Origin: Nitrosospira briensis C-128 | Lineage (GTDB): Bacteria > Pseudomonadota > Gammaproteobacteria > Burkholderiales > Nitrosomonadaceae | Length of the DNA: 64,000 bases | Assembly (NCBI RefSeq): GCF_000619905.2 | Contig: NZ_CP012371.1 | Coordinates: 496,001 to 560,000, forward strand | Direction of reading: 5' to 3' | Part shown: positions 20,812-33,907 of the stretch, piece by piece | Layout of the letters: every line of letters begins with the position of its first letter | How positions within the stretch are numbered: position 1 is the stretch's first letter | The notes under the pieces: generated by a model | Seen by the model: the letters and a program-made list of their open reading frames with translations, nothing else | What the model was told of the DNA's origin: nothing | The model's database searches: none | Program-made: the position numbers and the translations under genes

Positions 20812-22272
20812 ATGAGACTGGTTGAGAAAGCTCTAACCTTCGACGATGTTCTGCTGCTTCCCGCCCACTCGGTGGTTTTACCACGCAACGTTGCCTTGAC
20901 GACGCGCCTTAGCCGCGAAATTTCCCTTAATATACCGCTGGTTTCGGCCGCGATGGATACGGTGACCGAGGCGCCGCTTGCTATCGCGCTTGCGCAGGAG
21001 GGCGGCATCGGTATTATCCACAAGAATATGTCGGCGGAATCCCAGGCAGCCCACGTAGCCAACGTCAAGCGCTTCGAAAGCGGGATAGTGAAAGATCCCA
21101 TCACCATCCCGCCGGACATGACAGTCCGTGACGTACTCAACCTCATCCGAAAATACAAAATATCCGGCTTACCCGTAGTGGAAGGATCGAAAGTCGTCGG
21201 TATCGTCACCAACCGGGACCTTCGTTTCGAAACCAACCTGGATCAACCTATCAAGAACATCATGACGCTGAAAGAGCGGCTGGTGACGGTAAACGAAGGC
21301 ACTGGCCGCGAGGAGGCGATGACGTTGCTGCACAAGCATCGCCTGGAGCGAGTCCTGGTGGTGAACAGTAACTTCGAATTGCGTGGACTGATTACCGTAA
21401 AGGACATAATCAAGACATCCGAGCACCCCAATGCATGCAAGGACGACCTGGGGCGTCTACGCGTAGGCGCGGCCATTGGCGTCGGCGACGGCAGTGAAGA
21501 ACGCGCGGAAGCACTCGCCGAAGCAGGCGTGGACGTGATCGTGGTGGATACTGCGCATGGACATTCACAGAGCGTACTTGACAGGGTACAGTGGGTAAAG
21601 AAAAGGTTTCCGCAAATCCAGGTTATCGGCGGGAATATCGCTACTGCTGCTGCCGCCAAAGCTCTGGTTGACCACGGAGCTGATGCGGTAAAAGTCGGAA
21701 TAGGCCCTGGCTCAATCTGCACGACCCGCATTGTTGCAGGCGTCGGTGTGCCGCAAATCACCGCAATCAAAAACGTATCCGAAGCGTTGGCAAACACCGG
21801 CGTACCGCTGATCGCCGACGGCGGCATCCGCTATTCCGGCGATATCGCCAAGGCAATTGCCGCAGGAGGCAACTCTGTGATGTTGGGCGGATTGTTCGCG
21901 GGCACCAGCGAAGCGCCAGGCGAAATCGAGCTATTCCAGGGACGGTCCTATAAAACCTACCGCGGCATGGGGTCACTTTCTGCAATGCAGCAAGGTTCGA
22001 GCGACCGCTATTTCCAGCAAGCCGAGCAGAACGCCGAAAAACTGGTACCGGAAGGCGTAGAAGGCCGTGTTCCCTTCAAAGGCAGTGTCATTGCCGTAAT
22101 TCATCAGCTTATCGGTGGGTTACGCTCCGGCATGGGTTATCTCGGTTGTGAAACAATTGAGGACATGCACGCCAAAGCCGAGTTTATCGAGATTACCTCT
22201 GCCGGCATTCGCGAATCCCACGTCCATAACGTGCAGATCACGAAAGAAGCACCGAATTATCGTGTGGAATAA
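20812..22272 (+). CDS. guaB: IMP dehydrogenase
   Basis: The 486-residue enzyme oxidises IMP to XMP with NAD, the committed step to GMP. The TIM barrel is split by two CBS domains (about residues 92-205). The catalytic-Cys loop is [20 protein letters not shown] and the flap region has [10 protein letters not shown]. Length is normal. It has its own promoter and a 205-base gap before guaA. Confidence 0.98.
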
Positions 22273-22477
22273 GCTGTTGATGTAACGCAGTGTAGTACAT
22301 CAAGATATCGCTACTTGAATGATTCAAATTGTCTCCTCATGCTGCGCTGCCCGTCCTCACAAGTGGGATAACTATGCAGCCTTTCTCGCGCCTGCATAGC
22401 TCCGATCACGCCATTTTTAACTTTTCATTCAAGTTTTACTTGAAACTGCCGGATATCCCGGCGCACCCTATCAGGCC

Positions 22478-24040
22478 ATGCACCAAAAAATACTCATTCT
22501 TGATTTCGGTTCCCAATATACGCAACTGATTGCCCGCCGAGTCCGGGAAAGCAACGTCTACTGCGAAATCCACGCATACGACGTGAGTTCGCAATTTGTC
22601 AGGGATTTTGCGCCGAAAGGTATTATTCTTTCGGGCGGTCCGGCTTCTGTAGCAGAGTTTGAAACGCCACGGGCTCCGCAGATCGTTTTTGAGTTAGGTG
22701 TGCCGGTGCTGGGTATCTGCTATGGTATGCAGACCATGGCCGCCCAATTGGGCGGTGCGGTTGAAAATTCCAAGGTGCGCGAATTCGGTTACGCTGAAGT
22801 GCAAGCGAAAAACAGAATTGCTCTGCTGCGAGACATATACGACCATACCGATACCGCAGGCAAACAGACTCTCGACGTGTGGATGAGTCATGGTGATGCT
22901 GTCACCAAGCTTCCTTCCGGCTTTGAAGCCATGGCCAGCAATGCCTCCACGCCCCTGGCTGCCATAGCGGACGAGGCGCGAAAATTCTATGGCATACAAT
23001 TCCATCCGGAAGTGACTCACACCCCGCAGGGCAAGGCCATTATCGCGCGGTTCGTGCACGAAATTTGCGGGGCCGGGCATGACTGGAATATGCCTGACTA
23101 CATGGAAGAAGCGATCGGCAGAATCCGTTCCAAGGTAGGAGCGGACGAGGTTATTCTGGGCCTGTCCGGTGGCGTCGATTCATCGGTAGCCGCAGCACTC
23201 ATTCATCGCGCCATCGGCAAACAACTTACCTGTGTATTTGTGGATAACGGCCTGCTGCGGATGAACGAAGCCGAACAGGTAATGGATACCTTCAGCAGAA
23301 ATCTGGGCGTAAAAGTCATCCATATAGACGCCAGCGGAGAGTTTCTCAAGCACTTGCAAGGCGTCAGCGATCCTGAAATGAAACGCCGCATCATCGGTCG
23401 GGAATTCGTCGAAGTGTTTCAGCGCGAAGCTGCGAAAATTCCTAGTGCGCATTGGCTTGCCCAAGGTACGATCTACCCGGACGTGATCGAATCCGCAGGC
23501 GGAAAAACGAAAAAAGCGCAGACCATCAAATCGCATCACAATGTAGGCGGCCTGCCCGATACACTGCATTTGAAACTTCTGGAACCGTTGCGCGAATTAT
23601 TCAAGGACGAAGTACGCGAACTTGGGGTAGCGCTGGGACTTCCGCACGACATGGTCTTTCGCCACCCCTTTCCCGGGCCCGGATTGGGAGTTCGCATACT
23701 CGGCGAGGTAAAGCGTGAATATGCCGAATTACTGCGCCGTGCCGATGCGATCTTTATTGAAGAACTACGTATCTCGGGTTGGTACGAGAAAACCTCTCAG
23801 GCGTTTACCGTATTCCTGCCGGTAAAATCCGTAGGGGTCATGGGCGACGGACGCACTTATGAATACGTAGTAGCCCTGAGAGCAGTTCAAACCGAAGACT
23901 TCATGACTGCACACTGGGCGGAACTCCCCTACCCCCTGCTAGCCAGGATATCCAACCGTATCGTCAACGAAGTGCGCGGGATTAACCGTGTTGTCTATGA
24001 CATCTCCGGTAAGCCGCCTGCGACGATCGAGTGGGAATAG
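22478..24040 (+). CDS. guaA: GMP synthase (glutamine-hydrolysing)
   Basis: 520 residues. The class-I amidotransferase domain (1-200) has the nucleophile in GICYGMQ and the triad His in FHPEVTH. The ATP-pyrophosphatase domain has the PP-loop LSGGVDSS. The C-terminal dimer domain ends KPPATIEWE. It converts XMP to GMP and follows guaB as in many proteobacteria. Its 3' end borders the accessory island. Confidence 0.98.
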
Positions 24041-27569: not shown

Positions 27570-28916
27570 ATGCTTGACCAAATGTTCACTGCGGAGAACT
27601 TCCGTCGCATCTATGATGCTGAGAACCGCAAGGGTGCCGACTTGGCGACCCGCTATTTACCTACGCTTGAACCGTTCACACTCGATGTACGCAACAAAGT
27701 GCAGGAGATTCGTGATTTACGGAAAATCGAAGCCACACTGAAGACTGGCGATTTCGAGGCGCGGTTGCTTGCGTTGAAAGCTGAACTAACGGCCTTGAAG
27801 GCAGATAAATCATCAGCCGTCGATGCCTTGATGGATGGCATCAGCCAGAAGGTCCTTAAGCCGAGCTTCAAGATCGACCTTTCCAAAAAGATCGGACCGA
27901 AGGGAAAGGCTGTTTTCTGCATTGACGAGGAGCCTGAAACCTTCTTCGTCATTAAGCAGATCCAGCGTAACATTCATCGCATTTATGGCGTCAAACAGGC
28001 GAACCGTCACGACCTCGTCTGCCAGCTTCGCGATATGCTCGGCAGCAAATTTCCTTTCGAACTGGTTCGCACGGATATTTCGTCATTTTATGAGAGTATT
28101 GACCGTAAGCGTTTGCTAGAGAAGCTGGAGCGCGACCAGCTATTGAGCCCCGCGTCAAAAAAATACATCAAGCAAGTGCTGGACTCATATGGCTTGATTT
28201 CTGGCACCTCTACTGGCGTTCCCCGAGGTGTGGGCATCAGCGCGTATCTGGCCGAACTGTATCTGAGGCCGGTGGATAAGGCGATCCGGGTTATTCCTGG
28301 TCTGGTGCTATATTGCCGGTTTGTCGATGACATCGTGGCCGTGTTTGCACGCCCGCCCGCTGGAAAAAGCCTCGGTTCGTTCAAGGAACTGATCAACGTA
28401 ATCCTCAGTGATAACGGATTTGCGCTCAATGAGGACAAAACTTCTGAATTCGATCTGGCTGACACCAATCCGAAGAAGTTCGAGTATCTGGGGTATCGCT
28501 TCCATCTCAAACAGGGGCAGTTTGAAATCAGCCCGAGCGCGGCAAAAGTGGTGAAATATCGGGCGCGGATGAATGCTGCGTTTGCAGACTATTGGCGTGA
28601 GAAGCCCGTCAATTCACGAGGTGCATTCAGGAGGCTCGTCGGACGCATTAAATTTCTGACAGGCAACACACGCCTTTCCAACAGTAAATCACGGGCTGCC
28701 ACCGGCGTATACTTTAACAACTCGATCGTGACCGATCTATCGAGCTTTAAATTACTCGATAAGCGGCTCAAGAGGCGTATAGCCGAGCTCAAACGAACCC
28801 GTCTGCAAAAACAGTTAAAAAATCTTAAATTCACGACTGGTTTTGAGCAGCGACGGTATCATAATTTCAGTACGCGAGAGTTGCAGATGATCGTGGGAGT
28901 CTGGAAACATGAGTAA
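27570..28916 (+). CDS. drt3a: Antiviral reverse transcriptase Drt3a (UG3 family)
   Basis: 448 residues. A helical N-terminus (1-115) with coiled-coil character precedes the RT palm: TDISSFYESID (Asp169), GVPRGVGISAYLAELYL (216 on) and the catalytic YCRFVDDIVAVF (Asp253, Asp254). The opening FTAENFRRIYDAENRKG fits what I recall of UG3 proteins. It is paired with a second, larger RT overlapping by eight bases; two adjacent RTs of these sizes define DRT type 3 (UG3+UG8), reported as a phage-defence system. RTs of group II introns or retrons are unlikely: no maturase domain and a different partner. Confidence 0.85.
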   Translation: MLDQMFTAENFRRIYDAENRKGADLATRYLPTLEPFTLDVRNKVQEIRDLRKIEATLKTGDFEARLLALKAELTALKADKSSAVDALMDGISQKVLKPSFKIDLSKKIGPKGKAVFCIDEEPETFFVIKQIQRNIHRIYGVKQANRHDLVCQLRDMLGSKFPFELVRTDISSFYESIDRKRLLEKLERDQLLSPASKKYIKQVLDSYGLISGTSTGVPRGVGISAYLAELYLRPVDKAIRVIPGLVLYCRFVDDIVAVFARPPAGKSLGSFKELINVILSDNGFALNEDKTSEFDLADTNPKKFEYLGYRFHLKQGQFEISPSAAKVVKYRARMNAAFADYWREKPVNSRGAFRRLVGRIKFLTGNTRLSNSKSRAATGVYFNNSIVTDLSSFKLLDKRLKRRIAELKRTRLQKQLKNLKFTTGFEQRRYHNFSTRELQMIVGVWKHE

Positions 28917-30981
28917 GCGGCGCGTCTCACTTACTCACAGAAAGCAAAGATCTGTACTCACCGACATACTGCCGTTCGAAGTGCCCCCGACTTTCTCCAA
29001 TCGGGGCTATTACCGCTTCTTGGTTAATAACAGCATTGAGATCGAAAATGGCCAGTTGCGCTGGGTTTGCGAAACGACCGCGCTCGATCAGACAATGCGG
29101 TTACTGTTTGGAATCAAGCCCAAGGCCGAAATCGCGACCAACGTTGTGAACGAGTGGGGCAAGCAGAAAACGCGCCGCAGCGTACCCATCAGTAAATGCC
29201 AGATGGCAACCATCCCTTTTAATTTCCGTGTCGCTCATAATCTTGATGGACGTACGCTTAGCGTTGTTCATCCGCGCAATCAAGTTGCCGTGGCAAGTTT
29301 CTACGCAACGCACAGCGCCTTGATCATATACCACGCGTCTGTTAGCGAGTTCTCGATCCGTCATCCTGTGTCGGTGTCGCGCTACGCTTATTTCAAGGAC
29401 AAGCTCCATGAAGAACGCTTAGATGCCGTTGCAGGGGTCGAGGAAAGCGACCGAGAGTACGAACAGTTAGGCTCCTATTTCGTTTATCGGAAATACCGAA
29501 ACATCCACCGTTTCTTTGAATCGTATAAATACCACCGCAGCGAGAAAAAATATGATGCGATGGTGCAGATCGATGTGAGCAAGTGCTTTGACAGCATCTA
29601 CACTCACTCACTGCCTTGGGCCGTGTTGGGCAAGGATCAGACGAAATTCAATTTGGACGAGTCGAAGGATACTTTCGGGGGCCGCTTCGATGCCCTCATG
29701 CAAAACCTCAACCATAAAGAGACCAACGGCATAGTCATCGGCCCGGAGTTTTCCCGGATTTTCGCTGAGATCATCCTGCAGTCAGTTGATGCAGACATGA
29801 TCACGCAATTATCGGAAGGGGCAAATCTGACCCACAAGGCCGATTATGAAATTTTCCGCTACGTGGATGACTTCTTTGTTTTCTACAACAAGGAGTCTAC
29901 TCAGCTGAAGATATTCGAGACGCTTCAGCAGGTGCTTAAGTCTAAGAAGCTGAGCATCAACACGGCCAAAATAAAGCATTATCAAAAGCCGATCATCACA
30001 GAAATTACGATCGCTAAAGAGCGTATCTCGATCCTTCTGAATGACGAGATCGATCCAGTGTGTGAGGAGGAACCTCTGGCCGATCTTTCCAGCCCTCCAA
30101 AGCAAAATCTGGCCTGCCCTGTAAATGCGAACCGTCTGATTATTCGGTATAAGGCTGCCATCAAGGAGGCTGGCGTCACCTATGGTGATCTCCTGAACTA
30201 CACCTTCGCCATAACCGAGAATAAAATCGAGAAGCTCTTCAAAGCCTATGTGGCGAGCGACAAGTCAGGTCGCGATCGTAAGCGCCTCTCCAATGCCTTG
30301 CTCGCGATTATGGAGTTCGCGTTTTTCGTCTATTCTGCGAGCCCGAGGGTCAATCACACGATCCGCCTCTGCCGGATAATCACGGCCTCCGTAGCTTTCC
30401 TGCAGGCGCAAAGTTTGCCATACGAGCATAAACACTTGCTGTTTAAGTACGTTCACGACAACGTGTTACAGCAGCTCGAAAAAAACACGATGAGCGTCCA
30501 TCGTGAGGTCGAGAGCCTCTACCTACTTATTTCCTTATCGCAGATCGGCCGGGAATATTGGCTGCCGGTTTCCGTTCTTCTCCGACACTTCCTGATCAAG
30601 GAGGAAGAAGGCACAGGGAGCTATGTTCGCCCGTCGGGTTTTATGAACCACTTTTCGATAACGGTCCTGCTGTCCTATATCAAAGACAAGGTTCGTTATG
30701 AAAAGCTGAAGGGCTTCGTAGAGGCGCACCTCATCGCCAAACTCGAATATATGAAGGCCCATTGTCCGAATGACGCCGAAACACTGATCCTGCTGCTTGA
30801 TCTCACAGTCTGTCCTTATATCAGTGCCGCCACCAAAGACGCCATCGGACAGATTTTTGGTCTGGATGCAGCAGCGCTTGCGTCGGTTCGATCATCCAAC
30901 GATCAGTGGTTTACCACCTGGGGTGATAAATTCGATCTCGGGAAGGAACTGGAGGCGAAGCGCAGTCGTGAGGTATACTGA
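28909..30981 (+). CDS. drt3b: Antiviral reverse transcriptase Drt3b (UG8 family)
   Basis: 690 residues. The RT core has QIDVSKCFDSIYTHSL (Asp222), a region TNGIVIGPEFSRIFAEIIL and the catalytic FRYVDDFFVFY (Asp320, Asp321). The last 290 residues are predicted mostly helical, with no known domain, as in UG8/Drt3b. Both RT active sites are intact, so the system looks functional. The start lies within the last codons of drt3a, implying coupled translation. In published work on DRT3 this subunit is reported to make the complementary strand; I cannot test that here. Confidence 0.85.
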   Translation: MSKRRVSLTHRKQRSVLTDILPFEVPPTFSNRGYYRFLVNNSIEIENGQLRWVCETTALDQTMRLLFGIKPKAEIATNVVNEWGKQKTRRSVPISKCQMATIPFNFRVAHNLDGRTLSVVHPRNQVAVASFYATHSALIIYHASVSEFSIRHPVSVSRYAYFKDKLHEERLDAVAGVEESDREYEQLGSYFVYRKYRNIHRFFESYKYHRSEKKYDAMVQIDVSKCFDSIYTHSLPWAVLGKDQTKFNLDESKDTFGGRFDALMQNLNHKETNGIVIGPEFSRIFAEIILQSVDADMITQLSEGANLTHKADYEIFRYVDDFFVFYNKESTQLKIFETLQQVLKSKKLSINTAKIKHYQKPIITEITIAKERISILLNDEIDPVCEEEPLADLSSPPKQNLACPVNANRLIIRYKAAIKEAGVTYGDLLNYTFAITENKIEKLFKAYVASDKSGRDRKRLSNALLAIMEFAFFVYSASPRVNHTIRLCRIITASVAFLQAQSLPYEHKHLLFKYVHDNVLQQLEKNTMSVHREVESLYLLISLSQIGREYWLPVSVLLRHFLIKEEEGTGSYVRPSGFMNHFSITVLLSYIKDKVRYEKLKGFVEAHLIAKLEYMKAHCPNDAETLILLLDLTVCPYISAATKDAIGQIFGLDAAALASVRSSNDQWFTTWGDKFDLGKELEAKRSREVY

Positions 30982-30984
30982 TTT

Positions 30985-31230
30985 CGGTGCTCCGCTTTAC
31001 CCTTAATGGCTGTTGGCAGCCCACACACAAGCGCCAACTCTTCTCCTATATCAATTGGGGGGAGGGTATGAGACGGCAGGAGCGGGCTGTCTCTCCATCT
31101 TTCTTGGCCGCGTCCGTGTTTTCTCGGCCTTCATCGGCATTTCTGAGTCGCAGCAGGGCCTGTCTCAAGCTGATTTACAAGTGTTTTGCCCCGTGATCGT
31201 TAGGTGCTTCCTGCTAACCTATGGGGGCTG
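30985..31230 (+). ncRNA. Candidate DRT3 non-coding RNA
   Basis: No protein-like frame fills this gap, but it has dense secondary structure. Stem 1: GTTGGC (31012-31017) with GCCAAC (31033-31038), closing a 15-base loop that carries ACACACA (31023-31029). Stem 2: GAGACGGC (31070-31077) with GCTGTCTC (31086-31093). Stem 3: GGCCG/CGGCC (31106-31110, 31125-31129). A final nested structure: GCCCC/GGGGC (31188-31192, 31224-31228) around GTTAG/CTAAC. DRT3 is reported to include an ncRNA whose AC-repeat templates GT-repeat DNA, which fits the ACACACA loop. The ends are estimated; the 3' limit is set by the RAYT homology starting near 31238. Confidence 0.7.
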
Positions 31231-31716
31231 ACTGTGCGTTTCAGGATGCGGATTCACCAGGTTATCGGTCTGGCCAAGCGCATTGCAACCATAACTTGAC
31301 CACGGATACTCGGATGGGTGCGCTACCATGCCTGCGCGTATTGGATTGAGTTCTATGTAGCGCATGCAAGTCAATAAATACGCCTCGGTATCAATCAGGG
31401 TAGCTTTGTAGCGCCCTTCCCATAACGTACCGGTGCGCCGGTAGCAATGATTGAAAAATTGGACATAATAACGGCCCAGCATTTGCAAGGCTTTGCTTAA
31501 ACTCTGCTCTTTATGGGGGGTGATGAGTAAGTGCACGTGGTTGGTCATCAGCACATAGACGTGAATGTCACAACCATGCTTCTCACAGGCTAATCGCAAT
31601 TTATCTATATAGAACCGATAATCCGCCTCTACACAGAAAATCTCAGTCCGGTTATTACCACGTAAAACTACGTGCTGCGGTTGGCCGGGAAGGATAAATC
31701 TCGGTAAGCGCGCCAT
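31219..31716 (-). pseudogene. RAYT transposase, C-terminally truncated (copy 3)
   Basis: 165 codons from ATG 31716. It retains MARLPRFILPGQPQH, the metal-binding HVHLLI motif and the YYVQFFNHCYRRTG region with the catalytic Tyr, so the chemistry residues are present. Homology to the intact copy ends near 31238, about 72 residues short, and the last codons come from flanking DNA. It directly abuts the 3' end of the proposed DRT3 ncRNA. Confidence 0.8.
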
Positions 31717-31764
31717 TTGCAATTCCTATCGCGGAAAAGTTCTCAGCATACATCGTTACTGCAT

Positions 31765-31966: not shown

Positions 31967-32359
31967 ATGAAACATAAAACTTTATTGATTTCCGCTTTAC
32001 TTTGTGCAGCTAGCACAGGCACTGCCATGGCAGCCAGCAGCACTTTCCAAAATACCTGTTCCAATATCACCTTTACTTATTCTGGCAATGATGCGGCAGT
32101 TCAGGCTACCTGCCTTACTGCGGCTGGCACCCCCAATAACACCAAATTGGTAATTATGGGTATTTCCAATCAAAATGGACAGCTCACCAGCGGCTCTGGC
32201 GCTAGCACATTCCAACAAAGTTGTGGCAATATCCAAATCAGCGCGACCGCTTCCGGTGCTATGTTGTCTGCTATTTGCCGCACTGCAGCAGGAGGCGCAA
32301 ATGCTACTACAATTCCGCTAAGCGGCATCAACAACAACAACGGGAATCTCTCTTACTAA
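31967..32359 (+). CDS. Secreted cyanovirin-N-like (CVNH) lectin
   Basis: 130 residues. A clear signal peptide (MKHKTLLISALLCAASTGTAMA) precedes a mature part of about 108 residues made of two tandem repeats. Each starts STFQ with a Cys four to six residues on (STFQNTC, STFQQSC), has a second Cys (VQATC, LSAIC) and ends in an NxNGxL turn (SNQNGQL, NNNNGNL). This is the layout of cyanovirin-N, which binds mannose-rich glycans. Start 31967 has TTTGGAG upstream; the AT-rich leader suggests its own promoter. It stands alone between mobile-element scraps. Confidence 0.8.
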   Translation: MKHKTLLISALLCAASTGTAMAASSTFQNTCSNITFTYSGNDAAVQATCLTAAGTPNNTKLVIMGISNQNGQLTSGSGASTFQQSCGNIQISATASGAMLSAICRTAAGGANATTIPLSGINNNNGNLSY

Positions 32360-33148: not shown

Positions 33149-33859
33149 TCAGACTCGATTGATCTTGAATTGTTCTGATTTCCTATCTCCGCCCTTGACC
33201 GCAGGCTCCACCTGCCTCTTCAATTTCTCTTGAATACTTTGCTTGAACCGGTCGTTTCCCAATACCCAAGCCTTGTTTGTGGCCTCTCTGATTGTATTAA
33301 TGCTCTCTTCAGAAATCGGATACTCGAATAACCGCCGGTACGCGCTTTGGCGTTCCTCGTCAATTCTTCCCAAACGTAGGTATTCGGAATGTGGGGTTAC
33401 CAAATCATTGACCCAGCCCAAGGCATTATAGCCATAGCTTGACCAGCGGTATTCGGATGGATGGGCTACCATACCGGCACGTACAGGGTTCAGTTCTATA
33501 TAACGCATACAGGTCAGCAAATACGCCTCGGTATCAATCAGAGTAGCTTTGTAGCGGCCTTCCCATAACGTACCGGTGCGCCTGTAGCAATGATTGAAAA
33601 ACTGCACATAATAACGCCCCAGCATTTGCAAGGCTTTGCTTAAGCTCTGCTCTTTGTAAGGGGTGATAAGTAAATGCACGTGGTTGGTCATCAGCACATA
33701 GGCGTGAATGTCACAACCGTGCTTTTCACAGGCTAACCGCAATTTATCAAGATAGAATCGATAATCGGCCTCCACACAGAAAATCTCTGTCCGATTATTG
33801 CCACGTAAAATTATGTGCTGCGGTTGGCCGGGAAGGATAAATCTCGGTAAGCGCGCCAT
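33149..33859 (-). CDS. REP-associated tyrosine transposase (RAYT, Y1_Tnp)
   Basis: 236 residues. IS200-like Y1 domain: NHVHLLI (HxH metal site) and YYVQFFNHCYRR with the nucleophilic Tyr; GTLWEGRYKA and ELNPVRAGMV are the other family blocks. The C-terminal extension (RLGRIDEERQSAYRRLF...) is typical of RAYTs. Such single-strand transposases act on REP palindromes. The start ATG 33859 gives MARLPRFILPG. The TGA stop lies inside the left terminal repeat, so gene and end sequence overlap. Confidence 0.9.
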   Translation of the reverse strand: MARLPRFILPGQPQHIILRGNNRTEIFCVEADYRFYLDKLRLACEKHGCDIHAYVLMTNHVHLLITPYKEQSLSKALQMLGRYYVQFFNHCYRRTGTLWEGRYKATLIDTEAYLLTCMRYIELNPVRAGMVAHPSEYRWSSYGYNALGWVNDLVTPHSEYLRLGRIDEERQSAYRRLFEYPISEESINTIREATNKAWVLGNDRFKQSIQEKLKRQVEPAVKGGDRKSEQFKINRV

Positions 33860-33907
33860 TTGCAATTCCTGTTGCGGAAAAGTTTCCAGTATACATCGTT
33901 ACTGCAT

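Follow-up and report, generated by a model that had tools for sequence, protein, structure and literature searches.

Does the short stretch behind the reverse transcriptase (RT) gene drt3b of Nitrosospira briensis C-128 encode the non-coding RNA (ncRNA) of a DRT3 defence system, and what would such an RNA look like? We analysed 64,000 nucleotides (nt) of contig NZ_CP012371.1 (positions 496,001 to 560,000; hereafter the window, in whose own numbering all coordinates are given), which carry an intact-looking DRT3 operon on the forward (+) strand. A first-pass annotation of this DNA had proposed a DRT3 ncRNA of 246 nt at 30985-31230, made of four stacked hairpins, the first of which would expose ACACACA in its loop. 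With high confidence, we read the sequence right behind drt3b as an ncRNA of about 108 nt with four stems (P1-P4) and a pseudoknot, which would bind Drt3a and template poly(dTdG) in DRT3 defence.

Conserved AC run and fold of the RNA

The candidate template is the run ACACACA at 31023-31029 (+). ACACAC is found at most 260 nt after drt3b in all 104 loci counted, as compared to 60 of 1950 control windows (3%) from the same loci and the same strand; over the whole window, ACACACA has 4 occurrences versus 4.57 expected. The 104 loci are the window and 103 others, including near-copies such as L068 and L101, and leave out L044 (where drt3b ends at the contig edge), L105, L106, L112-L115 and L117-L120 (partial or remote matches), and L004-L009 (other RTs). 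Genome contigs are represented by the best 80 of 277 relatives of the window's Drt3b; the other sources are 23 viral contigs, 8 plasmids, the genome of L003, and two E. coli genomes. This set under-represents E. coli-type loci, because the genome loci were chosen by relatedness to the window's Drt3b. The run starts no more than 80 nt behind the drt3b stop in 88 of the 104 loci (24-75 nt), and 101-234 nt behind it in the remaining 16.

An alignment with 79 relatives gave a fold of approximately 30986-31093 (+). The closing stem P1 is formed by GGUGCU (30986-30991) and AGCGCC (31030-31035). P2 is the hairpin GGCUG-UUGG-CAGCC (31008-31021), likely the 5′ boundary of the template, a role borrowed from DRT10 (PMC12632851). 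P3 is a hairpin at 31037-31067 with a conserved loop around UAUAUCAAU, and P4 (31070-31093) is a hairpin of GAGACGG and CUGUCUC. The P4 loop carries AGCGG (31081-31085), the 3′ strand of the pseudoknot, whose 5′ strand is CCGCU (30992-30996). In this fold the AC run would sit in the junction between P2 and the 3′ strand of P1, with P2 one base ahead of it and the P1 strand directly after it. The same four stems were obtained from a single-sequence fold of 30982-31092 and from RNAalifold without an input structure (which gives five of the six P1 pairs unprompted), and near-invariant blocks are visible in the MAFFT alignment of 42 close sequences.

Covariation supports both the P1-P4 fold and the pseudoknot. 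In the alignment of 42 close sequences, from which our RNA model R1 was built, 91.3% of the cells are paired, 22 of 35 pairs show double changes, and the covariation score is 0.247, as compared to 0.146 for shuffled alignments (0/500) and at most 0.129 for slid versions. The held-out alignment A3 contains 38 loci outside the building set of R1; it is a model-selected set, since loci without an R1 match (and the near-copies L068 and L101) were excluded, and it was fitted to P1-P4, hence it leans towards these stems. In A3, 90.8% of the cells are paired, 34 of 35 pairs show double changes, and the score reaches 0.781 versus 0.240 shuffled (0/500). The pseudoknot was never part of R1; in the held-out loci 88.7% of its cells are paired, with 44 double-change cells (13.9 shuffled) and a score of 0.587 versus 0.282 shuffled (0/500), the slid versions scoring 0.211 or less. 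Shuffles ignore relatedness, and therefore the slid controls and the double changes bear the weight.

Extent of the RNA and model matches

R1 has a single match in the window at E ≤1 (30982-31105, 129.6 bits), and one match in the genome at E ≤0.001 (150 of 544 first-look candidates scored). We give 30986-31093 as the minimal folded extent; the 3′ end may reach ~31105. At E ≤1, R1 matches 52 of the 80 sources, every match starting no more than 32 nt from the end of drt3b. Rfam gave no match in the window at gathering score. No conserved RNA was seen past 31105 in the eight loci aligned there (of 201 bases from 31080, only the first stretch is well conserved). As the first-pass annotation had judged, the gap after drt3b holds no credible protein: open frames of 69 and 72 amino acids are found there, and we do not take them as coding because the relatives differ in this place by gaps with lengths not divisible by three.

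The drt3a-drt3b operon

The gene drt3a (27570-28916, +) encodes a UG3-type RT of 448 amino acids with the motif FVDD (PADLOC Drt3a, E 7.2e-122; Pfam RVT_1), and drt3b (28909-30981, +) encodes a UG8-type RT of 690 amino acids with YVDD (PADLOC Drt3b, E 2.9e-199); the two frames overlap by 8 bases. DRT3 requires both RTs with active-site motifs and an ncRNA with conserved ACACAC downstream of drt3b. Both RTs are present, Drt3a and Drt3b being the best PADLOC families of the two frames, and by sequence and covariation the RNA appears to be present as well. Among 89 Drt3a proteins the motif is FVDD in 30 (the window's included), YVDD in 58, and neither in one. The 3.21-Mb genome has no Drt3b match other than the window copy. 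Phage records gave nine matches, none of them covering 80% of Drt3b.

Residues E22, R71 and R241 of EcoDRT3b, which together with Y666 are reported to have gating or priming roles (PMC13174585), correspond to E24, R115 and R283 of the window's Drt3b, as counted in an alignment with PDB 26cz_A. This alignment stops at 646, and we take Y690 as the counterpart of the priming Y666 because of its C-terminal place. The C-terminal residue is a tyrosine in 95 of 99 Drt3b proteins, and E24, R115, R283 and Y690 are all invariant in an alignment of four sequences. Taken with its place and its AC run, the RNA behind drt3b is very probably the DRT3 ncRNA with this run as its template. On identity, place and template, the first-pass annotation thus agrees with our reading; on fold and extent it does not.

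Proposed mechanism

In E. coli DRT3, ACACAC templates the synthesis of poly(dTdG) by DRT3a, which needs the RNA, and DRT3b makes poly(dCdA) without RNA, primed on Y666 (PMC13174585). The use of the AC run as template, P2 as its boundary, the priming and the defence are all inferred for this locus from E. coli DRT3 and DRT10. The sequence right behind drt3b would give an ncRNA of about 108 nt that binds Drt3a, in which P1 would close a small junction containing P2 and, in single-stranded form, ACACACA. From a start near the P1 side, Drt3a would copy the AC run towards P2, which would stop it; slipping back by whole dinucleotides and repeating the copying would yield poly(dTdG). P2 as a stop with dinucleotide slippage is the natural reading because P2 is located one base ahead of the run, and P1's 3′ strand immediately behind it. 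Poly(dCdA) would come from Drt3b, working without the RNA and primed on Y690, and would anneal with the poly(dTdG) into a GT/AC duplex acting against phage.

A possible promoter in the last drt3b codons

A sigma-70-like promoter of its own, lying within the final drt3b codons, probably drives the RNA, with +1 at the first P1 base or next to it. In the window, the possible -10 element is TATACT (30974-30979, +), drawn from the final Val and Tyr codons of drt3b and the first base of its stop codon, and the possible -35 element is TGGAGG (30950-30955, +), also inside drt3b codons and weak, for which relatives have TGGACG, TTGACG or TTGACA. The end of drt3b reads GTA-TAY-stop. For codon analysis, 81 loci were thinned to 62 by a greedy choice at <80% DNA identity (L011, L094, L095 and L101 were excluded beforehand, and L045 and L051 were removed for an internal stop or N). 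GTA is the Val codon in 51 of the 62 loci, as compared to 14.1 expected from the usage of the same genes, which puts this column at rank 1 of 180 conserved columns; in the unreduced set it is found in 72 of 85. The GAC codon of the ELD motif is at rank 3 of the 180 columns (48/53 versus 21.6 expected). The columns at ranks 2 and 4 encode serine and lie far from the end of drt3b; scores of serine and leucine codons may reflect codon-block inertia and were not used as evidence.

Together, the conserved codons place TNGAC, 18 bp, and TATA(C/T)T. TATATT or TATACT stands at the -10 place in 51 of the 62 loci, and a combined -35/-10 match of at least 9/12 is likewise found in 51 of 62, whereas 2000 synonymous resamplings gave 14.8 on average and never more than 25. 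From the -10 element to the first P1 base there are 7 nt in all 42 close sequences and 5-8 nt in 28 of the 38 held-out loci. A promoter hidden inside drt3b, if true, can be tested by synonymous change. RNA pairing was tried as a source of the constraint on the drt3b tail and was rejected: five pairs are predicted in the 45 nt upstream, and none shows a compensatory change among 26 sequences.

Weighing the alternatives

Several results count against our reading of the RNA and its promoter. At E ≤1, R1 is without a match in 28 of the 80 sources. The 111 nt of 30982-31092 fold only modestly better than shuffles (z = -1.33; 23/200 as good). Three of the 12 P3 pairs (57/89, 61/85, 62/84) and the outermost one of P4 (95/118) do not form in 23-25 of the 42 close sequences; the innermost P1 pair is lost in 6 of the 42 (columns 10/50) and in 23 of the 38 held-out loci (10/95), and the outermost P1 pair (5/100) in 10 of the 38. 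The pseudoknot has 6 pairs with double changes, and 53 of 500 shuffles have at least as many. The window's P4 tail is only mildly T-rich, the proposed promoter site is not listed in a scan with the sigma-70 consensus, and the -35 element of the window has just 3/6 matches.

The fold put forward in the first-pass annotation is almost certainly wrong. It rests on a hairpin of GTTGGC (31012-31017) and GCCAAC (31033-31038) that shows ACACACA in its 15-base loop AGCCCACACACAAGC, as the first of four hairpins of a 246-nt RNA. The stem does exist and is perfect in the window, and four of the six pairs are intact in 41-42 of the 42 close sequences, but the other two fail in 26 and 29 of them, the covariation proposed as a check does not rise above shuffles (0.055 versus 0.061; 408/500 shuffles as high), and the stem takes bases of the better-supported P1, P2 and P3. 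Of 500 shuffled versions of the 246 nt, 51% contain at least one perfect 6-bp stem with a loop of 3-20, which makes such a hairpin a chance-level feature. The AC run would owe its exposure to the P2/P1 junction of the covariation-supported fold and not to that loop. The longer extent fares no better: P4, the last conserved hairpin, ends at 31093, well before 31230, and the 246 nt fold no better than shuffles (z = 0.20; 120/200 as good). What the same annotation had named as a further check, an invariant AC run in homologous loci, is borne out by the 104 loci.

A second alternative leaves the template role untouched and concerns the origin of the RNA, which might be released by cleavage from the 3′ end of the drt3 mRNA; the last codons would then be constrained by the RNA or its processing instead of by a promoter. 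We consider this a possible origin, though the less probable one. Co-transcription would be natural because 76 of 80 aligned loci have the start of P1 5-11 nt past the first stop base; some constraint is also seen at other codons among the last ten, and the weakness of the window's -35 element fits as well. Against it, the constraint peaks at GAC and GTA, i.e. at -35/-10 spacing, the Tyr codon between the peaks is without constraint (z 0.8), and the five predicted upstream pairs lack compensatory change. That the conserved block is only a terminator or an mRNA-stability element of the operon, and no template RNA, is very unlikely. T-runs do come after P4 in some distant relatives (e.g. L058, L069, L070, L073, L081), so P4 may also end transcription there, but a terminator leaves the invariant AC run, P1, P2 and the pseudoknot unexplained, and DRT3a of E. 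coli needs such an RNA (PMC13174585).

Comparison with known DRT3 systems

For E. coli DRT3, an ncRNA that lies downstream of drt3b and carries an ACACAC template has already been published (PMC13174585), so its position is not undescribed, as the first-pass annotation had supposed. The E. coli RNA resembles that of the window in lying downstream of drt3b and in having a conserved 5′-ACACAC-3′ in a loop region, and the two systems share the same two RTs and the same key Drt3b residues. The E. coli model was made from EcoDRT3 and close kin (32 unique hits according to the methods of PMC13174585, 41 systems according to the legend). What differs is the distance: in E. coli-type loci the template lies 101-234 nt behind drt3b, versus 24-75 nt in the compact kind. 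The 16 E. coli-type loci are the two E. coli genomes and the plasmid and viral contigs that group with these, and R1 has no match at the right place in any of the 16 (a match in L014, E 5.1, lies elsewhere). The separation is also seen in a quick tree of Drt3a with Shimodaira-Hasegawa-like approximate likelihood ratio test (SH-aLRT) support, from which L068, L101, L011, L051 and L045 were excluded, and then loci without a full drt3a (89 of 99 kept). The 14 late-template loci with a full drt3a are set apart from the 75 others, all early-template, by a branch with 100% SH-aLRT, and the template-position label needs one change on this tree versus a shuffled mean of 13.3.

All the elements by which we define a compact DRT3 ncRNA as a group of its own (P1, P2, template, P3, P4, and a pseudoknot linking the segment behind P1 with the P4 loop) were found in the window. 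R1 matches are mostly in Pseudomonadota and Bacteroidota; Acidobacteriota (L043), Nitrospirota (L092), Margulisiibacteriota (L086) and Akkermansiaceae (L047) each appear as the label of a single locus. R1 has no match in five early-template loci (L012, L088, L090, L094, L095) and a weak one in L074 (10.6 bits, E 1.2); therefore, the compact group is not fully covered by R1. One compact-kind DRT3 lies on an E. coli plasmid (L011; CP083496.1, IncY-typed), in which the drt3b region is annotated as two hypothetical proteins.

Deng et al. 2026 describe a DRT3 (PDB 9z6y) of Drt3a, Drt3b and an ncRNA with ACACAC, with poly(GT/AC) as its product (PMC13314766, PMC13213688), and the window's system appears to be like it in these three components. 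The Drt3b of L109 matches the 9z6y chain over its whole length. By eye, the corresponding segment of L109 differs from our RNA in that a candidate closing stem GCAACC/GGTTGC encloses most of it, with the template near the 3′ side, and in that no counterpart of P3-P4 follows this stem; single-sequence folds of the segment do not form the GCAACC/GGTTGC stem. The DRT10 ncRNA has an internal repeat that permits realignment (A-B-A′), similar to the AC run, and differs in belonging to another RT family with another product and in its varying template loops, versus the invariant AC run here (PMC12632851).

The fold of this lineage was not found in a literature search, which did not cover Deng et al. 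2026 or Mestre et al. 2022, and the word pseudoknot has no count in the excerpts of PMC13174585, PMC13314766 and PMC13213688. To judge from its sequence, the system appears to be a member of DRT3 with a compact version of its ncRNA, which seems distinct from that of E. coli and is new as far as we have checked. A broader proposal, to which we give even chances, is that DRT3 ncRNAs come in two separate designs. The compact, pseudoknotted one would extend across Pseudomonadota, Bacteroidota and a small number of other phyla, its template lying flush between boundary hairpin and closing stem, and with its own promoter within the codons for the Drt3b priming tyrosine, so that protein primer, promoter and RNA start would be locked in ~40 bases. 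A second, shorter fold with a covariation-supported pseudoknot provides a defined minimal RNA for testing, shows which part is invariant (the AC run beside the boundary hairpin) and which parts vary, and, as a model, allows the RNA to be annotated in many relatives.

Genomic neighborhood

Two long frames at 20812-24040, before the DRT3 stretch, are presumably guaB and guaA, and the defence genes may lie in an island behind guaA. Just behind the ncRNA there is an IS200-like Y1 transposase, with a shortened copy at 31219-31722 (-), identified by Pfam, and a full copy at 33149-33865 (-); the full copy has 12 matches in the genome, including both window copies, and several of these are fragments. 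A small hairpin (GTTAG...CTAAC, 31199-31218) behind the ncRNA is common to L019 and L051 among the seven relatives aligned there. Between the two transposase copies, a small CVNH-domain protein with a signal-like start is encoded at 31985-32356 (+).
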